Assembly (NCBI GenBank): GCA_019347715.1
Contig: JAHWKU010000003.1
Location: 62,001 to 126,000 of the forward strand
Direction: 5' to 3'
Source: Actinomycetota bacterium
GTDB lineage: Bacteria; Actinomycetota; CADDZG01; JAHWKV01
Length of the DNA: 64,000 nt
Part shown: in pieces, positions 791-34,955 of the stretch
Layout: the number at the start of each line of letters is the position of its first letter
How positions within the stretch are numbered: the stretch's first letter is position 1
Program-made: the position numbers and the translations under genes
The notes under the pieces: generated by a model
Told to the model about the DNA's origin: nothing
The model's input: the letters and a program-made list of their open reading frames with translations, nothing else
Database searches by the model: none

Positions 791-3577
791 TTGCCAGACC
801 TGACCGAGGACAAGACCGAACTGCACATCTCTCTTCCCACTGGGACGGTCACGTTTCTGATGACCGACGTGGAGGGCTCGACGAAACTCTGGGAAGCCGA
901 TCCCGAGGCGATGGGAGTTGCGACCGGTCGCCTCGACGATCTCTTGACGGAGAAGATTTCAGCTTTCGGGGGGCTTCTGCCACGGGATCAGGGGGAGGGC
1001 GACAGCCTGATCGCGGTGTTCACTCGTTCTACGGATGCAGCCCGATGTGCTTTGGAGATACAGAAGGCGATCGCAGAAGAACTATGGCCTTCCGACATCC
1101 TCATGAAAGTGAGGATGGCTCTTCACTCCGGAGAGGCTGAGGTTCGAAAAGGTAATTATCACGGCCCAGCGTTGAACCGATGCGCGCGCATCAGAGATCT
1201 TGCTCATGGGGGCCAGGTTTTGATCTCTGAGATTGCGCACAATCTGATCCGAGAACAGCTCCCTGCTGAAGCGATCGTCGACGATCTCGGAATTCACGCT
1301 CTCAAGGACTTAAGGGAACCAGAGCACATCTATCAGCTCGGCCTCGAGTCTTTGCCGAGAGAATTCCCTCCTCTTCGTTCGGTCTCGGTCGCAAAGAGCA
1401 ACCTTCCTCATCAGCTGACAACCTTCGTTGGACGCGCGTCTGCCCTTGACGAGATACCGCAGGCTCTTACGCGTTCGAGACTGGTGACTCTCACGGGACC
1501 CGGCGGCACCGGCAAGACCAGGCTCTCTCAGGAGGTCGGCCGGAGGGTCCTCGATCGTTTCCGCGACGGGGTGTGGCTGGTCGAGCTGGCATCCGTTCCG
1601 GTAGGCGGGCTGGTCGTGCAGGCCGTGTCGGGCGTTCTCGGGGTGAGAGAAGAACCAGGAAGACCGATGGACGAAACGCTCTCGGGGCACCTTCGCGAGG
1701 CCGAGATGCTCATCATCCTCGATAACTGCGAACACCTGATCGAAGCCGCCTCGCAGCTGGCCAACACGATTCTCCGCGCCGCCCCGGAAGTCCGTATTTT
1801 GGCTACGAGCAGGGAAGCCCTTCGAGTTCCTGGAGAGGTGGTCTGGGCCCTTCCTCCCTTGAGCCATCCGGTTCCGGAAGACTCGACTCCGGAGCTTCTC
1901 GACCAATACGAAGCGCCGAAGTTGTTCGTCGACCGGGCCTTTTCTGCCAACCCGGGATTCGCCCTAAATAGTGAGAACGCTCCTTTCGTGGCGGAGATAT
2001 GCCAGAGGCTCGATGGAAGTCCTTTGGCCATCGAACTCACTTCGGCTTGGCTCAACGTTCTGACTCCTCAGCAGATCGTGTCGAAGCTGCGAGACAAAAG
2101 CTCATTCCCCGCAGGCTCGAACAGGACGCTGCCGGCTCGTCACCAGACGCTTGAGGCAACTGTCGGTTGGAGCTATGACCTGCTTTCGGACGAGGAGCAG
2201 GACCTTTTCGTCAGACTGTCTCTGTTCGTCGGTCCATTCAGTCTCGAAGCGGCTGAGCGAGTCGGGGGTGCTGAAGAAGTCCCCCGCGATCGGATTCTCG
2301 AGCTCCTATCGAACCTGGTAGCGAAATCCCTCATCCAAAGTGACCTGGCCGGCGAGGCAGTTCGCTATTCGATGCTTCAAACCATCCGCGAGTACGGGTT
2401 AGCGAAGCTTGGGGACTCAGGCGATGAGGCGAAGATCAGAACGAGATATCTCAAGTGGTTCGTGGCGCGAGCCGCCGAAGCCGGCGGCGACCTTCGCGGC
2501 CCCCGCCAGGGGTACTGGCTGGAGCAGCTCGAACAGGAGCATGACGACATCCGCGCAGCATTCAGCTGGGCGTTTGCAACCGGAAGAGAGCTCGATGCCC
2601 TCAAGATGGCAGGGGACCTCTGGCTCTTCTGGTTCATCCGCGGCTATCTCTCTGAGGGACGCGGGATCCTCGAGAAGGCTCTAACTGTCTGCCACGACGC
2701 CCCCGAGGACCTGCGGGCCAGGGCCATGTACTCGCTGGGGGTGCTCGCGCAGAATCAGGGTGAAACCGAAGAGGCGGGAGGGCTGTTTCATGAAAGCCTG
2801 GAGATCTACCGCAGGATCGGGGACAGCAAGGGGATTTCGACGTCGCTTATTGCACTGGGTAACGCAGCCGACCGCCAGGGAGATTACGAGGGGGCAGAGA
2901 AGCACTTTACCGAGGCATTGGAGCTTCGCCGCGAGGCCGACGATCGATCGGGGATGTCCACTCCACTGCTCAATCTGGGAAACGTCGCCTTCCGAATGGG
3001 AGATTTCGACCGGGCCAGGGCGTATTACGAAGAGAGCCTCGAGATAAAGCGCGAGATCGGCGACGAAGTCGGTCTCGCGTCCGCGCTCCACAATCTTTCC
3101 GCAGTGCTCAGCAATCTCGGTGAAGCCGAAGAGGCAAGAAACCTCGAGGAACAAGCGCTCGATCTGCGGCGCAAGCTTGGTGATAAAAGGGGGATTGGGG
3201 CATCACTGCACAGCCTCGCCGACGTGGCCATGGAGTCTGGGAATCTCGAGGACGCCAAAGCCAAGCTGGGAGAGGCCCTCGAGATTCTTAATGAATTGGG
3301 AGACAGGCAGGGCATCGCGCAGTGCCTTCTGGGTTATGCAGAGGCGGCACTCAGGGAAGGGCAGATGGATCGCGCCGGACGGCTATACGCGGCGTTCGAG
3401 GGGCTTAGCCGCCAGTTGCATTTCAACTTGCCTTCGGCCGATCGGCAGGTATTCGACGAAGAGGTGTCTTCGGTGAGGGAGTCTCTGGGGGAGGCAGAGT
3501 TCACCAAGGCATGGCAGGAGGGAAGCTCGATGTCTCTGGATGACGTCGTGACGCTCGCTCTCGACCGTGACCTCTAA
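791..3577 (+). CDS. Class III nucleotide cyclase-like / P-loop ATPase / TPR signalling protein
   Basis: This 928-residue soluble protein starts at TTG. Residues about 15-185 form a class III adenylate/guanylate cyclase-type domain (TVTFLMTDVEGSTKLWE, later GDSLIAVF). An AfsR/LuxR-type ATPase domain follows, with Walker A GPGGTGKT near residue 236 and a Walker B-like LIILDNCEH near 310. Residues about 600-900 hold tandem TPR units, several with the wording GDxxGIATSL...GN. There is no DNA-binding helix-turn-helix at the C-terminus, unlike many MalT/AfsR relatives. The likely role is a signal-transducing ATPase; whether the cyclase domain makes cAMP cannot be told from sequence. A cyclic-nucleotide-binding protein is encoded about 5 kb away. 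The gene overlaps the next one by 11 bp. Confidence 0.85.
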   Translation: MPDLTEDKTELHISLPTGTVTFLMTDVEGSTKLWEADPEAMGVATGRLDDLLTEKISAFGGLLPRDQGEGDSLIAVFTRSTDAARCALEIQKAIAEELWPSDILMKVRMALHSGEAEVRKGNYHGPALNRCARIRDLAHGGQVLISEIAHNLIREQLPAEAIVDDLGIHALKDLREPEHIYQLGLESLPREFPPLRSVSVAKSNLPHQLTTFVGRASALDEIPQALTRSRLVTLTGPGGTGKTRLSQEVGRRVLDRFRDGVWLVELASVPVGGLVVQAVSGVLGVREEPGRPMDETLSGHLREAEMLIILDNCEHLIEAASQLANTILRAAPEVRILATSREALRVPGEVVWALPPLSHPVPEDSTPELLDQYEAPKLFVDRAFSANPGFALNSENAPFVAEICQRLDGSPLAIELTSAWLNVLTPQQIVSKLRDKSSFPAGSNRTLPARHQTLEATVGWSYDLLSDEEQDLFVRLSLFVGPFSLEAAERVGGAEEVPRDRILELLSNLVAKSLIQSDLAGEAVRYSMLQTIREYGLAKLGDSGDEAKIRTRYLKWFVARAAEAGGDLRGPRQGYWLEQLEQEHDDIRAAFSWAFATGRELDALKMAGDLWLFWFIRGYLSEGRGILEKALTVCHDAPEDLRARAMYSLGVLAQNQGETEEAGGLFHESLEIYRRIGDSKGISTSLIALGNAADRQGDYEGAEKHFTEALELRREADDRSGMSTPLLNLGNVAFRMGDFDRARAYYEESLEIKREIGDEVGLASALHNLSAVLSNLGEAEEARNLEEQALDLRRKLGDKRGIGASLHSLADVAMESGNLEDAKAKLGEALEILNELGDRQGIAQCLLGYAEAALREGQMDRAGRLYAAFEGLSRQLHFNLPSADRQVFDEEVSSVRESLGEAEFTKAWQEGSSMSLDDVVTLALDRDL

Positions 3578-4214
3578 GAAAATCGTCGAGGCCGGCTACG
3601 ATCAATTGAAGGCCCGTTATGGGCAGTGGACTCTCACGGTCGATCCGAGTCACCGAGTCGATTACCTGAAACGATTGATGGAGCTGCTCTCAGCAGGCTC
3701 TCTCATCCTCGAACTCGGCTGCGGACCGGGGATTCCGATTGGGATCGAGATCGACCAAGCAGGTCACTCCTATGTCGGCGTAGACCTTTCGCGTGAGCAA
3801 TTGGAGATTGCACGCGCCAACGTCGCAGGTGGAAAGTTCATCAGAGCAGACATGACCGAGATCGACTTCGAGCCGGGTTCATTCGATGCGGTCGCAGCCT
3901 TTTATTCGATCATCCACGTGCCGCGCGACCTTCACGCCGCGCTGTTCGCTCGGATCTGCCGGTGGCTCAAGCCGGGAGGACTGTTCGTCGCCTCACTGGC
4001 GGCAACAGACAATCCCGGAGGTGTCGACGCCTGGATAGACGACGTGCCCATGTTCTGGAGTGGTCACGATTCCGAGACAAACATCGCCATGCTCGAAGCA
4101 GCGGGCCTGAGATTGTTGAGGCACGAGGTGCTGCAGAACTTCGAGGACGATCAGGAAGTGATGTTCCTATGGGTGATTGGACAGCGGGTAGGATTGGAGA
4201 CACAGACGCGGTAG
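3567..4214 (+). CDS. Class I SAM-dependent methyltransferase
   Basis: This 215-residue protein has the Rossmann-type methyltransferase motif I, ILELGCGPGIPIGIE, near residue 47. An acidic motif II follows (YVGVDLSREQLEIARANV), then FDAVAAFYSIIHVPR in the motif IV region. The GTG start lies inside the 3' end of the cyclase/ATPase gene (11-bp overlap), which suggests translational coupling. The fold and SAM use are clear, but the substrate cannot be named: it resembles general UbiE/Tam-like methyltransferases. It is followed after 10 bp by the E2 gene on the same strand. Confidence 0.85.
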   Translation: MTSKKIVEAGYDQLKARYGQWTLTVDPSHRVDYLKRLMELLSAGSLILELGCGPGIPIGIEIDQAGHSYVGVDLSREQLEIARANVAGGKFIRADMTEIDFEPGSFDAVAAFYSIIHVPRDLHAALFARICRWLKPGGLFVASLAATDNPGGVDAWIDDVPMFWSGHDSETNIAMLEAAGLRLLRHEVLQNFEDDQEVMFLWVIGQRVGLETQTR

Positions 4215-4224
4215 AGGAGCTTCA

Positions 4225-5706
4225 ATGGCTACGCAGTTCAAAATGCCCCAGCTCGGCGAGACGGTCGTCGAAGGGACGATCACCCGCTGGCTCAAGCAGG
4301 AAGGCGAATCGGTCGAGGCCGACGAGCCATTGGTTGAAGTCTCAACAGACAAAGTCGACAGCGAGATTCCTGCCCCGGGTGCCGGAGTCCTGGTAAAGAT
4401 CCACGCCCAAGAAGGTGACACCGTTGCCGTGGGGGACGTGATCGCAGAGATCGGGGAATCGTCCGGCGCTGAGCAAGAGTCGCAGGAAGAGGAACCGGCC
4501 ACCGAACCGAAAGAAGAAAAACCGGCGGCAAAGCAAGAGGAAAAGCAGGAGGAAGAGCCTGCCCCCGAAGAGAAGGAGAAGCCTGCCGAGAAAGCTCCTG
4601 AGAAAGAACAACCTGCAGCCAAGGACGAGGGCAAAGCGGAGCAGCCAACATCGAAGCCTCCTTCTGGAGGCCAACGAGTTGCGGCAGCCGGAGGCGGAGA
4701 GGGAGGCGCGAGCCCCGAAGCGCAGGAGCTGGAGTCGACCGACGAGGAGCCGCGTCGCGGCATCCTGTCTCCGCTGGTCCGCAAACTTGCCGCGGAGCAC
4801 GGGGTCGATCTGCGCGAGGTCAAGGGAAGCGGGACCGGGGGCCGGATAACCAAACAGGACGTTCTCACCGCGCTCGAGTCGGCGCCGGCGAAGCCGGCTG
4901 CCGAGGCGAAGGCCGACAAGGCTGCTGAAGCTCGGCCTGCAAAAGAGCCGGCGGAGCCGGTCCAGGCCGGGCCAAGAGAAGAGCTGGTGCAGGTCAGCAA
5001 CATGCGCCGGTCTATCGCCGATCACATGGTGGCTTCACTCCACGAGACAGCCCGCGCCTGGAACACGATCGAAGTCGACATGACCAACATCGCGAGGCTA
5101 AGAGAAAAGGCCGGTGATGCCTTCAAGAAGACTGAGGGGTTCTCACTCACCTGGATGCCGTTTCTCTCGAAGGCAGTTACTCAGACCCTTCTCAAGTATC
5201 CCAACGTCAATTCCACTTGGAACGGCGACGGAACGATAACCGTGAAGCGCTACGTCAATCTCGGCATCGCGGTGGCGCTGGAGAACGGACTGATCGTTCC
5301 AGTCGTAAAGGGCGCCGATGGGATGAACATCTCGGGCCTGGCGCGCGGCATCCGCGACGTCGCGGACCGAGCGCGCAACAAGAAACTCGTTCCCGACGAT
5401 GTTGCCGGAGGGACCTTCACGATCACCAACCCCGGCCCATTCGGTTCGATACTGTCGGTGCCGATCATCAACAAGGGTCAGGCTGCCATCCTCGCTTTCG
5501 ACGCGGTGGTGAAGCGCCCCGTGGTAGTCACAGACGAAAACGGCGAGGACTCGATCGCAATAAGGCACATGGTGTTTTTGTCTATGTCGTGGGACCACCG
5601 GGTCATCGATGGGGCCGAAGCTGCCCTCTACCTTCAGCACCTCAAAGCCCTTCTCGAAGAGGCCGATTTCGAAAGTGACCTAAGCGCTTACTTCTCCGAA
5701 GGATGA
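4225..5706 (+). CDS. 2-oxoacid dehydrogenase dihydrolipoamide acyltransferase (E2)
   Basis: The 493-residue protein has the E2 domain order. A single N-terminal lipoyl domain carries the lipoylation lysine K43 in VSTDKVDSE. A long Glu/Pro/Ala-rich linker (about 85-180) comes next, then a peripheral-subunit-binding domain (RGILSPLVRKLAAEHGVD). The C-terminal acyltransferase domain ends in DHRVIDG, with His458 and Asp462 as the catalytic pair. It transfers acyl groups from an E1 to CoA as the core of a pyruvate or branched-chain 2-oxoacid dehydrogenase. Both a homodimeric AceE and an E1 alpha-beta fusion are encoded close by, so the E1 partner is ambiguous. No E3 (lipoamide dehydrogenase) gene is in the window. 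The lipB start overlaps its stop as ATGA. Confidence 0.93.
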   Translation: MATQFKMPQLGETVVEGTITRWLKQEGESVEADEPLVEVSTDKVDSEIPAPGAGVLVKIHAQEGDTVAVGDVIAEIGESSGAEQESQEEEPATEPKEEKPAAKQEEKQEEEPAPEEKEKPAEKAPEKEQPAAKDEGKAEQPTSKPPSGGQRVAAAGGGEGGASPEAQELESTDEEPRRGILSPLVRKLAAEHGVDLREVKGSGTGGRITKQDVLTALESAPAKPAAEAKADKAAEARPAKEPAEPVQAGPREELVQVSNMRRSIADHMVASLHETARAWNTIEVDMTNIARLREKAGDAFKKTEGFSLTWMPFLSKAVTQTLLKYPNVNSTWNGDGTITVKRYVNLGIAVALENGLIVPVVKGADGMNISGLARGIRDVADRARNKKLVPDDVAGGTFTITNPGPFGSILSVPIINKGQAAILAFDAVVKRPVVVTDENGEDSIAIRHMVFLSMSWDHRVIDGAEAALYLQHLKALLEEADFESDLSAYFSEG

Positions 5707-19726: not shown

Positions 19727-19780
19727 CCGGCTGATTGCCAGGAGATAAGATCTGGCTCGCGCTTTGTTGCGCGACGAAAA

Positions 19781-19868
19781 CGGGGAGCTCGGGAGAACCG
19801 GGCTGAGAGGCCGGCACAATCCGCCGGCGACCCATTGAACCTGATGCGGTTAATGCCGCCGGAGGGAG
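19781..19868 (+). promoter_or_regulatory. TPP riboswitch (THI element)
   Basis: The conserved THI-box words occur in order: GGGCTGAGAGGCCGGC, then GACCCATTGAACCTGATG, then CGGTTAATGCCGCCGGAGGGA. These form the pyrimidine- and pyrophosphate-sensing arms of the thiamine pyrophosphate aptamer. The 3' edge (GGAGGGAGGA, 19861-19870) abuts or contains the Shine-Dalgarno of the CytX-like gene that starts at 19875. No terminator hairpin lies between, so control of translation initiation is more likely than transcription termination. TPP would repress uptake of its precursor. Confidence 0.95.
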
Positions 19869-19874
19869 GATGTC

Positions 19875-21260
19875 GTGGCTTTGCAGGAATCTGAAGTAGA
19901 AGCTGCTCACTGGGGTATCGAGCCCGTCCCAACCGCTCACCGGAAGCTCTCCGGAGTCGACCTTGCGGTTCTTTGGGGCGATCTCGGCATTGGTCTGTTG
20001 GTGATCGTTGCTGGGGCGCTGCTGGTGGCCCCCGCGGAACAATTCGGTTTTGGTCTCTCCCTGCCATCGGCGATGGTGGCGATCGTTGCCGGCTCGGTGA
20101 TCGGATGCGCGCTGCTTGGGATAGGCGGGTTCATCGGCGCGCAGGAAGCCAGGCCGACCATGGTGCTGCTTCGCTCGGTCCTTGGCGTGAAGGGATCGTG
20201 GGTCCCGACTGTTTTGAACGTTGCCCAGTTGATCGGATGGACGGCGGTGGAGCTTTGGGCGATGGCTCTTGTTGCGGATCGTTTGAGCCGGCAGCTGTTC
20301 GGATTCACTTCCTTTGCGTTCTGGCTGCTCGTGTTCGGATTGATAGTGCTCGGCCTGAGTCTGTGGGGGCCGTTGGGCGTAGTGCGGATCTGGCTGGAGA
20401 GATTCAGCGTGTGGGTGATCGGCGTCATCGGGGCGATCATCACCGGCGTGCTCTTGTTCGGCGGAGGCTTCTCTGAGATCTGGAATACGCCGGGAGCCGG
20501 GGGGTCCATGATCTTCGGTCTTCCGATGGACCTCGTGATCGCTCTTCCAGTTTCGTGGGTGCCGCTCGTGGCCGACTTCAACCGGTTCGGACGGGGGCCG
20601 CGCTCGGCCCTGTTAGGGACTTCCTTGGGCTACCTTTTGGCGAACATCTGGTTTTACGCGCTGGGCGCGCTGATAGTTCTTCGGTTCCCCGATGCTGCGG
20701 TGACTCCGGAGGGGATAGCGATGTCGGTCCTCGCGCTTTCCGGAATCACCATCACCGGCACGCTTCTGTTGGTCGGACTCTTAGTAGGCGAGACAGATGA
20801 GGCGTTTGCCGATGTGTATTCGTCCGCGGTGTCACTGAGAAACATCTTTCCTTCCATCGACAGCAGGATATTGGTGGTTGCAGTCACCGCCGTGGGGATT
20901 CTTCTGGCGGGGAGGTTCACGATGCTCGCGTATGAGCTTTTTCTGTTCCTGCTGGGAAGCATCTTTCTGCCGCTTCTCGGAGTCTGGTTCGCCGATCGTT
21001 TCGTTTTGAAGAACGCCCAAGTCTTGGAGGGTTTCCGCTGGAAGGCCTTCTTGCCGTGGATCGCCGGCTTCGCCGTGTATCACTGGATCGCTCCAACTCC
21101 GCTTGCATGGTGGAGTGATCTGGTCGGAAGGCTGGCGGGCACTCCACTGTCCCACTCCGCGCCGTGGCTCGGTGCGTCGATCCCATCGTTCTTGACGGCC
21201 TTCTTGCTCCACAGCGCGCTGGGAAGTATCGGCAAAGGTAAATCTGCTGAGGCCCCCTGA
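19875..21260 (+). CDS. cytX: CytX-type hydroxymethylpyrimidine permease (NCS1 family)
   Basis: A 461-residue integral membrane protein with about 12 hydrophobic segments and NCS1 (cytosine/purine permease) features near the N-terminus: LAVLWGDLGIGLLVIVAG, then FIGAQEARPTMVLLRSVLG. CytX proteins are predicted to import hydroxymethylpyrimidine for thiamine synthesis. The TPP riboswitch immediately upstream supports this rather than a cytosine or allantoin substrate. The start is GTG 19875, close behind a strong GGAGG; the ATG at 19870 is in another frame. Three TPP enzymes in the window (AceE, the E1 fusion, KorB) and a fourth TPP-dependent protein depend on this cofactor. Confidence 0.92.
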   Translation: MALQESEVEAAHWGIEPVPTAHRKLSGVDLAVLWGDLGIGLLVIVAGALLVAPAEQFGFGLSLPSAMVAIVAGSVIGCALLGIGGFIGAQEARPTMVLLRSVLGVKGSWVPTVLNVAQLIGWTAVELWAMALVADRLSRQLFGFTSFAFWLLVFGLIVLGLSLWGPLGVVRIWLERFSVWVIGVIGAIITGVLLFGGGFSEIWNTPGAGGSMIFGLPMDLVIALPVSWVPLVADFNRFGRGPRSALLGTSLGYLLANIWFYALGALIVLRFPDAAVTPEGIAMSVLALSGITITGTLLLVGLLVGETDEAFADVYSSAVSLRNIFPSIDSRILVVAVTAVGILLAGRFTMLAYELFLFLLGSIFLPLLGVWFADRFVLKNAQVLEGFRWKAFLPWIAGFAVYHWIAPTPLAWWSDLVGRLAGTPLSHSAPWLGASIPSFLTAFLLHSALGSIGKGKSAEAP

Positions 21261-28583: not shown

Positions 28584-29633
28584 CTAGGGCTTCAGCATCA
28601 CCTTCGTGGCCTGCTTGGTGTCGAACAGCTCGTAGCCCTTAGGCCCCTCCTCGAGAGAAAGGGTATGGCTGATGATGATGGTTGGGTCGACTCTTCCTGC
28701 CCTGACCTCATCTAGAGCTTTCTCCCAGTAGCGCGGGACCGGCGTGACTCCGGAGAAGCTGATCTGGATGTTTTTCCGCCACGCCTCTCCGAGTGGAAAC
28801 GGATACTCCAGCTCGACATACACGCCAACGACTACAAGGTGTCCTCCAGAGCGGAGCATCTCGTATGCGTTTCGAAACGCTTTCTCGTGGCCAACGCAGT
28901 CGATGGCAATATCCGCTCCGCGTCCATCGGTCATCTCAGCGAGCATCGTCACCGGGTTTCTCTTCCCGATGTCGACTGGTGTCGCGCCGATCTTCTCCGC
29001 AAGGAGAAGCCGCTCTTCCACAGAATCGAGGGCGATCAACTGACCGGGCTCGTGAAGTTTGGCGTACTGAAGAGTGAAGAGGCCGACGGGTCCACAGCCA
29101 ATCACCGCAACCGTGTCGCCCTTGGAGATATTCGCCAGCTCTGCGGCGTAGTAACCGGTGGTGAGAATGTCTCCTGCGAATACTGCCTGCTCATCGCTTA
29201 GGTCGTCTTCGATCGCTAGAAGCGTCAGGTCTGCGTTTGGCATCCTGACTTTTTCAGCCTGCGCGCCCTGCAGGTCTCCCGAGAAGATCCCGTAGCCAAG
29301 GGCTCTGAAGTTGCCGTTGTCGCAGTTCTGATATTCCTGTCTCGTACACCACCAGCATTCGCCACAAGGTACGAGGAAAGATCCGATCACACGGTCGCCC
29401 GGTTTGATCTTGGTTACCGCCGTTCCAACCTCTTCGACAATCCCTACCAGCTCATGGCCGATGACGGTGCCTTCGGTCAGTCCCGGGACTCTGCCGTGGT
29501 AGAGATGAAGGTCTGACCCGCAGATGGGGGCCGTCGTCACCCTAACGATGGCGTCTTTCTCATCTTCGATGGTGGGTTCGGAGACGTCTTCGACGGCGAC
29601 CTTGCCCGACTCTTTGAAGACCAGACCCCTCAT
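28584..29633 (-). CDS. Zinc-dependent alcohol dehydrogenase family protein
   Basis: A 349-residue medium-chain dehydrogenase. The catalytic zinc site is in TTAPICGSDLHLYHG and GHELVGIVEEVG. The structural zinc cysteines lie in PCGECWWCTRQEYQNC, and the NAD(P) Rossmann motif is AVIGCGPVGLFTLQYAKL. It resembles glutathione-independent formaldehyde or threonine-type dehydrogenases, but the substrate is not fixed. Its ATG overlaps the stop of the upstream selenoprotein disulfide oxidoreductase (shared ATGA), so both are translated from one message. That suggests a link to aldehyde or thiol redox stress. Confidence 0.9.
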   Translation of the reverse strand: MRGLVFKESGKVAVEDVSEPTIEDEKDAIVRVTTAPICGSDLHLYHGRVPGLTEGTVIGHELVGIVEEVGTAVTKIKPGDRVIGSFLVPCGECWWCTRQEYQNCDNGNFRALGYGIFSGDLQGAQAEKVRMPNADLTLLAIEDDLSDEQAVFAGDILTTGYYAAELANISKGDTVAVIGCGPVGLFTLQYAKLHEPGQLIALDSVEERLLLAEKIGATPVDIGKRNPVTMLAEMTDGRGADIAIDCVGHEKAFRNAYEMLRSGGHLVVVGVYVELEYPFPLGEAWRKNIQISFSGVTPVPRYWEKALDEVRAGRVDPTIIISHTLSLEEGPKGYELFDTKQATKVMLKP

Positions 29634-30322
29634 TGACCGCCTTCACCGGCCGAGGCTTCCAGCACTGCTTCGACGAACTGGGGCTCGGGAAGGCCCCCGG
29701 TAAATGAGTAGGTATCGTTCACAACGATCTTCGGCACCGAATAGACCTCGTACTGGCCGGACAGCTCCGGGAACTCTTGGGCCTCAATAGAAGTAGAGCG
29801 GATTCTTGGGCTCACCATTGCCATTCGATTCGCCGTCACGACGGCGCGAGGGCAGTGCGGTCAGGTGGGTGTCGAGAAGACCATGATGTCGAGGTCTTCT
29901 TCGAGTGATCCGATCTTCTCGAGCGTTTCAGTCGAAAGGCCGTGGCCGTTGCTGTGGGAGACCGAGATCATCGTCTCCAGGAACGAAAGGAACTCGTAGC
30001 CTGCAGGCAGTCCGAGGAAACGGACGCCGTTGTCTTCACTTCCATCCGTTATCGCGATCGTTGGAGTAAAGCTGACTCCCCATTCGGAGGCGGTGGCGGG
30101 ATCTGCCTTGACGTTTACGACTTCGACTTCGAGGTTGTCGGAAAGCTCGGCAACCTCGTTCATCAGCTGCTCGGTCTCTTTGCACGAAATGCATTGGCGC
30201 ATGCCCGGGACGTAAAGCCCGCTGGACTCCTCTGAGAACACCGTCACCTTGACCGGCGCCTGCAGGTCGTCGCTCAGGCGGAGCTTGAGCGCTTCCCGGT
30301 CTTCATCTCTTAGAAAGGCCAT
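29630..30322 (-). CDS. Predicted selenoprotein: two-domain protein disulfide oxidoreductase
   Basis: Read through an in-frame TGA (29863-29861), this is a 230-residue protein with two thioredoxin folds, like archaeal-type PDO. Domain 1 carries C44-I-S-C47. Domain 2 reads MVFSTPT-U154-P-H-C157-P, so the TGA replaces the first cysteine of a standard CPHC active site. Homology continues after the TGA: VVTANRMAM and VYSVPKIVVNDTYSFTGGLPE, with the cis-proline loop SVPK. A SECIS-like hairpin follows the TGA. The final stop is also TGA and overlaps the alcohol dehydrogenase ATG. A conventional call would give a 154-residue fragment plus a 69-residue orphan. Start: ATG 30322; GTG 30325 is the alternative. 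Confidence 0.88.
29831..29863 (-). promoter_or_regulatory. Sec codon and putative bacterial SECIS (disulfide oxidoreductase)
   Basis: The UGA is at 29863-29861. On the minus strand CGCCGT (29846-29841) pairs perfectly with ACGGCG (29836-29831) around the loop CGTG. The stem begins 15 nt and the loop 21 nt after the UGA. The loop has G-U at positions 2-3, as SelB-binding hairpins of bacteria usually do. Confidence 0.75.
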
Positions 30323-30362: not shown

Positions 30363-30767
30363 TCAGCCTGTGGTCGGAAAATCGGTCTTGAACTTCGAGA
30401 TGAGAAACGAACCCGTTGCTCCTGCCACCTCTTGTCCATCGAGGGTGACCACTGCCCTGCAGTGGCCCAACCGGCGGGTCTTCGAGGTGACCTCTGCCAG
30501 GCACTCGAGCCGGCCCTCGCTCACGCCCTTGAGATACCGCATGGAGATCTCGATGGTCGTGCAGTACTCGCCTTGGGAGAGACTCGAGAAGAGCGCGGCC
30601 CCCATGGCGGTGTCGCAGAGGGTGTAGGCGACTGCCCCGTGCACAAGCCCGATCGGCGATAAATGGGCTTCTCGGATCTCAAGGCTGAAGCGTGCAGCTC
30701 CGTCTCCCATCTCGTCGGCCTGCCATCCAATCAAGTCCTGAAATGGGAAGTCCTTTCTCAGCTTCAC
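30363..30767 (-). CDS. PaaI-type hotdog thioesterase
   Basis: A 134-residue hotdog-fold protein. The active-site stretch is LSPIGLVHGAVAYTLCDTAMG, with the usual HG followed by a helix carrying Asp. The C-terminal strand region is LGHCRAVVTLDGQEVAGATG. Members hydrolyse acyl-CoA thioesters, including phenylacetyl-CoA derivatives. The substrate is unknown here. It lies upstream of the disulfide oxidoreductase gene on the same strand, 40 bp apart, and is divergent from the rhodanese-ThiF selenoprotein gene. Confidence 0.85.
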   Translation of the reverse strand: MKLRKDFPFQDLIGWQADEMGDGAARFSLEIREAHLSPIGLVHGAVAYTLCDTAMGAALFSSLSQGEYCTTIEISMRYLKGVSEGRLECLAEVTSKTRRLGHCRAVVTLDGQEVAGATGSFLISKFKTDFPTTG

Positions 30768-30846: not shown

Positions 30847-32013
30847 ATGAGCGAAAAGTTGAGCGGGCGCGATCTGCTGAAGAAGGCCAAGGATTCCGCG
30901 GCCCTGCTCGGTCCGGAGGAAGTTCACGAGATGTTGTCTCGCGGCGAGCAAGCCGTACTCGTCGACGTCAGGGAAGCCGACGAGTGGAGAGCGGGCCACC
31001 TTCCGGGAGCGGTCCACATTCCTCGTGGGTTCCTCGAGATGCAAGTCGACGACAATCTTCCGGACAAGGATGCTCCTCTGATCGTTTACTGCGCCGGGGG
31101 CAACCGCTCCCCATTGGCCGCGGTGACTCTGGGGCAGCTCGGATACAGCAACGTGAAGGTCATGGCGCGCGGATACAGCGGCTGGCGAGGCCTCGGCTTC
31201 GAAGTCCTGAAACCGACGCAATGGACGGACTCGCAAAGGGACAGGTACTCGCGCCATTTCGTTCTCCCCGAAGTAGGCGAAGAAGGCCAGACAAAGATCT
31301 CCTCTTCGAAGATGCTGGTGGTCGGCGCCGGGGGTCTGGGGTCTCCAGTTCTCTACTACCTAGCGGCTGCCGGAGTCGGAAAGCTTGGAATTGTGGACTT
31401 CGACTCAGTCGAGGAGAACAACCTTCAGCGCCAGATCATCCATTCGACGTCGCGCATAGGTGAGAACAAGGCGGCCAGTGCAGGCCAGACCATCGCGGAT
31501 TTGAACCCGGACGTTGACGTCGACATCATCGGCGAGCGGCTAACACCTGAGAATGTCGATGAGATCGTCTCGCACTACGACCTGGTCATTGATGCCACGG
31601 ACAACTTCGACACTCGTTACCTTCTGAACGAGGCGGCAGTGAAGTTTGGAAGGCCATACGTTTACGGATCGATCTTTCGTTTCGAGGGTTACGCGAGCGT
31701 GTTTTGGCCCGAGAGAGGCGGTCCTTGCTACCGCTGTATGCACCCTGAGCCCCCTCCTGCATCCTTGGCCCCCACCTGAAGCGAGGCCGGCGTCCTGGGC
31801 GTGCTCCCGGGAGTGATAGGAACGATCCAGGCCAATGAGGCCCTGAAGATCGCCGTCGGATATGGCGAACCGCTGGTTGGGCGCTATCTGACCTTCGACG
31901 CGCAGTCCACGACTTTCGGCGAACTGAAGCTCCGGAGGGACCCGAACTGCCCAACTTGCGGAGACAGCGTTTCTCAGTCGATCAAGGACAGGGCTGCCGC
32001 CGAGGCCCGCTGA
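30847..32013 (+). CDS. Predicted selenoprotein: rhodanese-ThiF/MoeB fusion
   Basis: Read through TGA at 31777-31779, this encodes 388 residues. An N-terminal rhodanese domain has active-site Cys82 in VYCAGGNRSP. An E1-like ThiF/MoeB/HesA domain follows, with the ATP motif VVGAGGLGSPVLYYLAAAGVG and a DATDNFDTRYLLNE stretch. Zinc cysteines are in CYRC and CPTC. After the TGA comes SEAGVLGVLPGVIGTIQANE, the usual MoeB sequence, so U311 takes the place of the conserved catalytic cysteine. Fusions such as MoeZ and MOCS3 have rhodanese at the C-terminus; here the order is reversed. It probably activates or sulfurates a ubiquitin-like sulfur carrier. A TACACT box eight bases before ATG suggests a near-leaderless transcript. 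Confidence 0.88.
31777..31812 (+). promoter_or_regulatory. Sec codon and putative bacterial SECIS (rhodanese-ThiF)
   Basis: After the UGA at 31777-31779, TCCTGGG (31793-31799) pairs with CCCGGGA (31806-31812): seven pairs with one U-G wobble. The loop is CGTGCT. The stem starts 14 nt and the loop 21 nt after the UGA. The loop opens with C-G-U-G, identical to the loop in the disulfide oxidoreductase gene. Confidence 0.75.
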
Positions 32014-34481: not shown

Positions 34482-34955
34482 ATGTTCGAACTCGGCACGA
34501 TTGTCCCTGAGTTTTCTCTTCCGTCTCACAACGGGTCGGTCGTTGGGCTGGGCGATCTCCTGGAGAATCATTCCCTCGTGGTAATCGCGTTCTATGTTTT
34601 CGACTTTTCGCCCACCTGAAGCAATGAGCTGTCTCAGTTCGAGGCAAAGTACGAGGAGTTCACCGCCATGGGGGCCAAGGTGGCGGGAGTCTCGACTGAT
34701 TCCAGCTGGTCTCACGCGGCTTACCGCCAAAGGTTGAAGCTGCGATTCCCTTTATTGAGCGATTACAACCGGGAGATCGTCGGTGACTACGTCGGCTTTT
34801 ACGAAGACGTGGCAGGCTATAAGGGAGTCAACCGCAGAGGCATAGTGATCGTCGACGGCGAGCGGAGACTCCGATGGAGATGGGTCACAGACAACCCCGG
34901 GGAAATGCCGGATACGGAGATGGTGAGAGAGGCAGTCCAGGAGCTCTGGAAATGA
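34482..34955 (+). CDS. Predicted selenoprotein: 1-Sec peroxiredoxin
   Basis: Read through TGA at 34617-34619, the gene encodes 157 residues of an AhpC/TSA-type peroxiredoxin. The pre-active-site strand LVVIAFYVFDFSPT leads to U46 at the peroxidatic cysteine position (S43-P-T-U46, equivalent to T/S-x-x-C). Downstream SNELSQFEAKYEEFTAMGAKVAGVS and FPLLSDYNREIV are standard Prx sequence. There is no cysteine anywhere in the protein, so the TGA cannot be a dispensable stop in a functional Prx; recycling must come from an external thiol. The stop (TGA) overlaps the next ATG. The ATG at 34482 is chosen because the sequence fits the family from its first residues. Confidence 0.9.
34617..34646 (+). 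promoter_or_regulatory. Sec codon and putative bacterial SECIS (peroxiredoxin)
   Basis: After the UGA at 34617-34619, TGTCTC (34630-34635) pairs with GAGGCA (34641-34646), with one U-G wobble, around the loop AGTTC. The stem starts 11 nt and the loop 17 nt after the UGA. The loop again has G-U at positions 2-3. The 12 bases CCCACCTGAAGC around the codon are identical to those in the rhodanese-ThiF gene. Confidence 0.72.

Follow-up and report, generated by a model that had tools for sequence, protein, structure and literature searches.

Proteins that match the NCBIfam model TIGR02187 (PDO_seleno_TRX, protein disulfide oxidoreductase) and carry a UxxC motif have been counted among bacterial selenoproteins since 2006, when they were described from Symbiobacterium and Carboxydothermus as 'homolog of AhpF, amino-terminal domain' (PMC1794560). 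A selenoprotein of the TIGR02187 type was reported in Asgard archaea in 2024 (PMC11227280), and reviews list the UxxC family as predicted selenoproteins (PMC9312934, PMC13188914). The protein disulfide oxidoreductases (PDOs) of archaea and Aquifex (Pyrococcus furiosus 1a8l, SsPDO) likewise consist of two thioredoxin folds with two active sites in about 226 residues. In Sulfolobus, the PDO is reduced by NADPH and thioredoxin reductase and in turn restores the peroxiredoxins Bcp1, Bcp3 and Bcp4; for its thiol-transferase activity, the fundamental site is the C-terminal one (PMC7465337).

The window analysed here, a stretch of 64,000 nucleotides of DNA, contains on the minus strand a gene of this kind (29630..30322). 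It forms a single frame of 230 codons plus stop, with an ATG start at 30322 and one internal TGA (29861..29863), which we read as selenocysteine (Sec) 154. The N-terminus reads MAFLRDED; MVFSTPT precedes U154, PHCP comes next, and 76 residues follow the U before the stop. The read-through sequence is MAFLRDEDREALK...QCISCKETEQL...IMVFSTPT-U-PHCPRAVVTANRMAM...SVPKIVVND...GEGGQ. Its N-terminal active site is C44-I-S-C47 (30182..30193, minus strand), and the TGA takes the first position of the second CxxC site, U154-P-H-C157 (29852..29863, minus strand). The cis-proline codon belongs to P197 of a VPK motif (29732..29734, minus strand). The sequence was re-read against the first-pass annotation, whose coordinates, C-I-S-C and U-P-H-C motifs and residue count after the U all proved correct.

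With C in place of U, the read-through protein scored 234.6 bits against TIGR02187 over residues 6-223, the curated cut-off being 185, and phmmer aligned residues 2-223 with the Pyrococcus PDO 1a8l at an E-value of 1.6e-35. By sequence, the closest solved structures were those of the Pyrococcus and Aquifex PDOs. AlphaFold, given five rows, produced a model with a pLDDT of 84 and a pTM of 0.83, and a Foldseek search with this model (m47f339f71c4a) returned the solved PDOs 2ywm, 1a8l and 1j08 at the top, with a TM-score of about 0.85 over the whole length. In view of these matches to TIGR02187, to known PDOs and to solved structures, the segment after the TGA is no chance extension: it forms the second of the two thioredoxin folds that this known type of protein has. 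This bears out the earlier description of a thioredoxin-fold half with a cis-Pro loop beyond the TGA. The TIGR02187 score, the two thioredoxin folds, a CxxC or UxxC in each of them and the cis-Pro together place the window gene among two-domain protein disulfide oxidoreductases, with Sec predicted in the second active site.

Compared with the archaeal and Aquifex PDOs, to which it is 29-36% identical with a TM-score of about 0.85, the window PDO differs in its second site, which reads U-P-H-C where they have Cys at both sites. The N-terminal domain of AhpF shares the double thioredoxin-like fold (TM about 0.75-0.8), but AhpF carries its own flavin reductase in a fusion, whereas the window PDO is free-standing with two redox sites. 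Bacterial Sec-glutaredoxins and Sec-thioredoxins have the same UxxC in a thioredoxin fold; these are single-domain proteins, to which the window PDO adds an N-terminal fold with CxxC. With the known Sec-containing TIGR02187 proteins, it shares both the model, above cut-off, and the UxxC motif. As predicted from its sequence, it is a well-supported addition to a selenoprotein family known since at least 2006. It differs from the described members in its lineage and in having genes for a Sec-MoeB and a candidate Sec-peroxiredoxin within about 5 kb. We regard these two further putative Sec genes, one of them encoding a possible partner enzyme, as the fresher point.

Upstream of the PDO gene and on the same strand lies a gene for a hotdog-fold thioesterase (30363..30767, minus strand), and downstream one for a zinc-dependent medium-chain alcohol dehydrogenase (28584..29633, minus strand). 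The ATG of the latter overlaps the stop codon of the full-length PDO in an ATGA (29633-29630), an arrangement that fits translation to the full-length PDO end. An F420-type LLM oxidoreductase and a DUF2342 zincin suggest that the host is most likely an actinobacterium.

The same codon is TGA in 12 genes from 12 genomes, including the window gene. All are from the same phylum and they fall into families f1 (one, our own), f2 (two), f20 (seven) and f43 (two). Two relatives from the same order (G022 and G023) have TGA-containing PDOs that are 48 and 54% identical to that of the window. A homologue with TGC or TGT at this position had been proposed as a check, and all nine Cys homologues whose site was read (L009-L012, L032, L067-L069, L071) have TGT or TGC at this codon. 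Their hosts are Myxococcota and others of that phylum, WOR-3, Caldisericota, Woesearchaeota and one genome of the same phylum as the window (L032). This comparison of Sec and Cys homologues supports the earlier view of a two-domain PDO with one dithiol centre (CISC) and one selenol-thiol centre (UPHC). In the phylum of the Myxococcota relative, all relatives that a search turned up were free of in-frame stops, and tblastn against plasmids found AhpF and distant thioredoxin-family matches only.

Selection on the region downstream of the TGA was read from codon positions. Within the order, amino acid identity was 55-67% after the TGA and 44-61% before it, and third-position differences exceeded those at first and second positions. 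This excess extended over 72-82 codons after the TGA; in f20 the two halves were about equally conserved. The third-position excess together with the amino acid conservation shows that the region after the TGA is under purifying selection. The window has 440 in-frame TGAs with an open frame on both sides, and a frame-specific codon-bias scan placed the PDO TGA first among them. A tree of 21 rows required at least two changes between Cys and Sec (shuffled mean 7); support near the window gene was weak and the tree did not resolve their direction. It leaves out L036, L037, L070 and L072, which the active-site pattern did not read. In L036 and L037 the TIGR02187 matches lie within TGA-free open frames of 563-602 residues, possibly reductase-PDO fusions.

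Bacterial SECIS elements are hairpins 16-37 nt after the UGA with a G among the first two loop bases. Downstream of the PDO TGA, a hairpin of this type, CGCCGU-CGUG-ACGGCG (29831..29846, minus strand), has its loop 20 nt after the UGA and a G as second base of the apical loop. Each of the 12 Sec genes has a hairpin at 17-22 nt from the UGA, with G as the first or second loop base, whereas in Cys genes the hairpin after the codon was weaker or absent. Around the same CGUG loop, the stems read CGCCGU/ACGGCG in the window genome (G000), CGCUGU/ACAGCG in G023 and GGCGGU/ACCGCC in G022. Within the order, pair 17/26, in which both bases are third codon positions, takes the forms C-G, U-A and G-C, one in each of the three genomes, a three-way synonymous compensatory change. 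Another pair of third positions, 14/29, switches there as well, and among the f20 genes the 17/29 pair occurs as G-C, A-U or G-U. For single genes, the hairpin p-values under synonymous recoding were modest (0.04-0.5, or 0.04-0.2 at a fixed site), and the hairpin recurs in diverged genes; its support is therefore drawn from the related genomes combined. Energy z-scores ranged from −0.6 to −3.0; Cys controls gave similar values, and the scores were uninformative one by one. The covariation test is more telling for this hairpin than the energy z-scores.

In the proposed mechanism, UGA 154 would be decoded as Sec by SelA, SelB, SelD and tRNA-Sec, guided by the hairpin just downstream, to give a full-length cytoplasmic PDO. 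We consider it very likely, from sequence comparison, that the protein is a Sec-decoded PDO in which the C-terminal site is the dominant one. The key thiol-transferase site of the Sulfolobus PDO is also the C-terminal one, and the window PDO has its Sec at exactly that site. The selenolate of UPHC would attack a substrate disulfide, a sulfenic or selenenic acid or a persulfide, C157 would resolve the selenolate-substrate adduct, and the selenenyl-sulfide could be re-reduced by thioredoxin reductase, either directly or via the N-terminal CISC dithiol. We infer that UPHC does the chemistry and that CISC would aid re-reduction or serve a subset of reactions. The favoured route would run from NADPH through thioredoxin reductase and the Sec-PDO to protein or peroxiredoxin substrates. 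Thioredoxin reductase is the probable electron donor, if with some reserve; the genome encodes one TrxB above cut-off. Close to TrxB lies a gene for an ordinary thioredoxin-like protein as well, which counts against the route.

The first-pass annotation had gone further and suggested an internal electron relay. CISC would take electrons from thioredoxin reductase and hand them on within the protein to UPHC, or the reverse. The window PDO, those of its two relatives in the order and all seven of family f20 have both sites, and the isomerase activity of the Sulfolobus PDO requires both sites (PMC7465337). Against this, the Sec homologues L038 and L039 of family f43 have MDFG or IDFG in place of the N-terminal CxxC while UPHC is kept, and the Cys homologues L011 and L012 also lack the N-terminal CxxC. 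In the form proposed, the relay is thus unsupported. It may be possible in individual proteins and would not be general in the family; for the window PDO we regard it as a tentative reading, rather less likely than a UPHC site that works with or without help from CISC.

The neighbourhood points to possible partners of the Sec-PDO. A second selenoprotein gene (30847..32013, plus strand) encodes a rhodanese and a MoeB/ThiF adenylyltransferase, with a single TGA (31777-31779) exactly at the crossover-loop Cys, in the context APT-U-SEAGVLG. MoeB is a listed selenoprotein family from the Sargasso Sea (PMC1088965). In the class of the window genome, this position is TGA in 17 of 22 genomes and TGC in the other 5, a natural Sec/Cys series in which the residue before the site is always T in the Sec forms and S or N in the Cys forms. 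It is doubtful, by our estimate, that the PDO mainly serves this Sec-MoeB/rhodanese in sulfur-carrier thiocarboxylation, in place of peroxide defence, by freeing it from a mixed selenenyl-sulfide or a similar oxidised state. Such a role would agree with the replacement of the crossover-loop Cys by Sec and with the gene order, Sec-MoeB being the immediate divergent neighbour of Sec-PDO at a distance of about 85 bp in G022 and about 160 bp in G023, and separated from it in the window by the thioesterase gene. It is at odds with the distribution of the two genes: most class members with Sec-MoeB have no PDO, and the f20 and f43 genomes showed no MoeB of the same type within about 4 kb of the PDO. 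That Sec-MoeB is a substrate of the Sec-PDO at all, a role proposed for the wider order, appears equally doubtful.

The frame-specific scan of in-frame TGAs in the window revealed a third, candidate selenoprotein gene 4.2 kb from the Sec-PDO. It encodes a one-Sec peroxiredoxin of the AhpC-TSA type (34482..34955, plus strand; 90.7 bits) with a TGA (34617-34619) as the codon of the peroxidatic residue, the context being FSPT-U-SNELS. The protein has no Cys anywhere and, with no resolving Cys, needs an outside reductant. Among solved structures, the relatives that match it best are the thiol peroxidase ApTPx of Aeropyrum, 2ywn and Bcp4. PDO is the known reductant of these archaeal relatives, and the Sec-PDO may reduce the peroxidatic Sec in the same way. 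In a PDO-peroxiredoxin couple like that of Sulfolobus, this Bcp4/ApTPx-like protein would be the candidate acceptor; a close counterpart was found in none of 23 other class genomes, including G022, and G023 has only a 30% identical one with no TGA. Since there is no close counterpart in the class, the peroxiredoxin TGA lacks comparative confirmation, and the peroxiredoxin is not a general partner of the PDO. The one-Sec peroxiredoxin as a substrate of the Sec-PDO is a tentative proposal, somewhat better placed than Sec-MoeB. It is unlikely that the three selenoproteins within 5.4 kb form one functional unit in which the Sec-PDO is the dedicated reductase both of the one-Sec peroxiredoxin and of the catalytic-loop Sec in the E1-like MoeB/rhodanese. 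If true, the three genes would constitute a selenol-to-selenol electron relay that links peroxide defence to sulfur-carrier chemistry. With the Sec-MoeB and the one-Sec peroxiredoxin suggested as concrete partners, the role of Sec in the PDO becomes testable.

The machinery for Sec insertion is present in the window's own genome, with a tRNA-Sec (84.2 bits, anticodon UCA), SelA (510 bits), SelB (335 bits) and SelD (388 bits), the last itself with an in-frame TGA. Of the 11 other genomes with a Sec-PDO, 10 gave a SelA match; the four genomes of a set with Cys-PDO gave none. In G110 (L027; 97% complete) the PDO contains the TGA, yet the SelA search gave no match. TGA-MoeB is present in G004 (L101) and G011 (L099), for which there was no SelA match either. 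A suppressor tRNA-Cys(UCA) that inserts cysteine at the UGA, or a variant code that assigns it some other residue, would agree with the Cys found in homologues that do not have the TGA. Such a reading is highly improbable in a genome with a standard tRNA-Sec and SelA, SelB and SelD, and a change of code was rejected, TGA being also the ordinary stop of the PDO gene itself and of the MoeB gene.

Least probable of all is a plain stop or a sequencing error, with a 154-residue single thioredoxin-fold product or a codon that is truly TGC or TGT: taken with no recoding the frame does end just before the TGA, but this codon recurs in the 12 genes of four families, with coding constraint and a PDO-specific second domain downstream, Sec machinery in the genome and a next gene that overlaps the full-length stop, so that the comparative data already contradict it. 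A sequencing error, which had been named as what would overturn the Sec reading, is ruled out by the 11 other genomes that share the TGA, and a pseudogene was rejected on the same conservation and on the coding constraint. Ordinary gene finding would cut the PDO before residue 154, and the annotation should be corrected. With Cys and predicted Sec homologues side by side, the window PDO is a clear-cut case in a family that the reviews cited above list only as predicted.

Elsewhere in the window, a TPP riboswitch was detected at 19771-19886 on the plus strand (58.8 bits). In another region of the same genome (L082, G000:C28:4000-10000; positions 2356-4932), downstream of the TGA-containing SelD gene lie genes like those for a JAMM peptidase, ThiS/MoaD and cysteine synthase. 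These resemble, as an impression from sequence only, the CysO-CysM-Mec pathway, and a MoeB-type enzyme would serve such a pathway.
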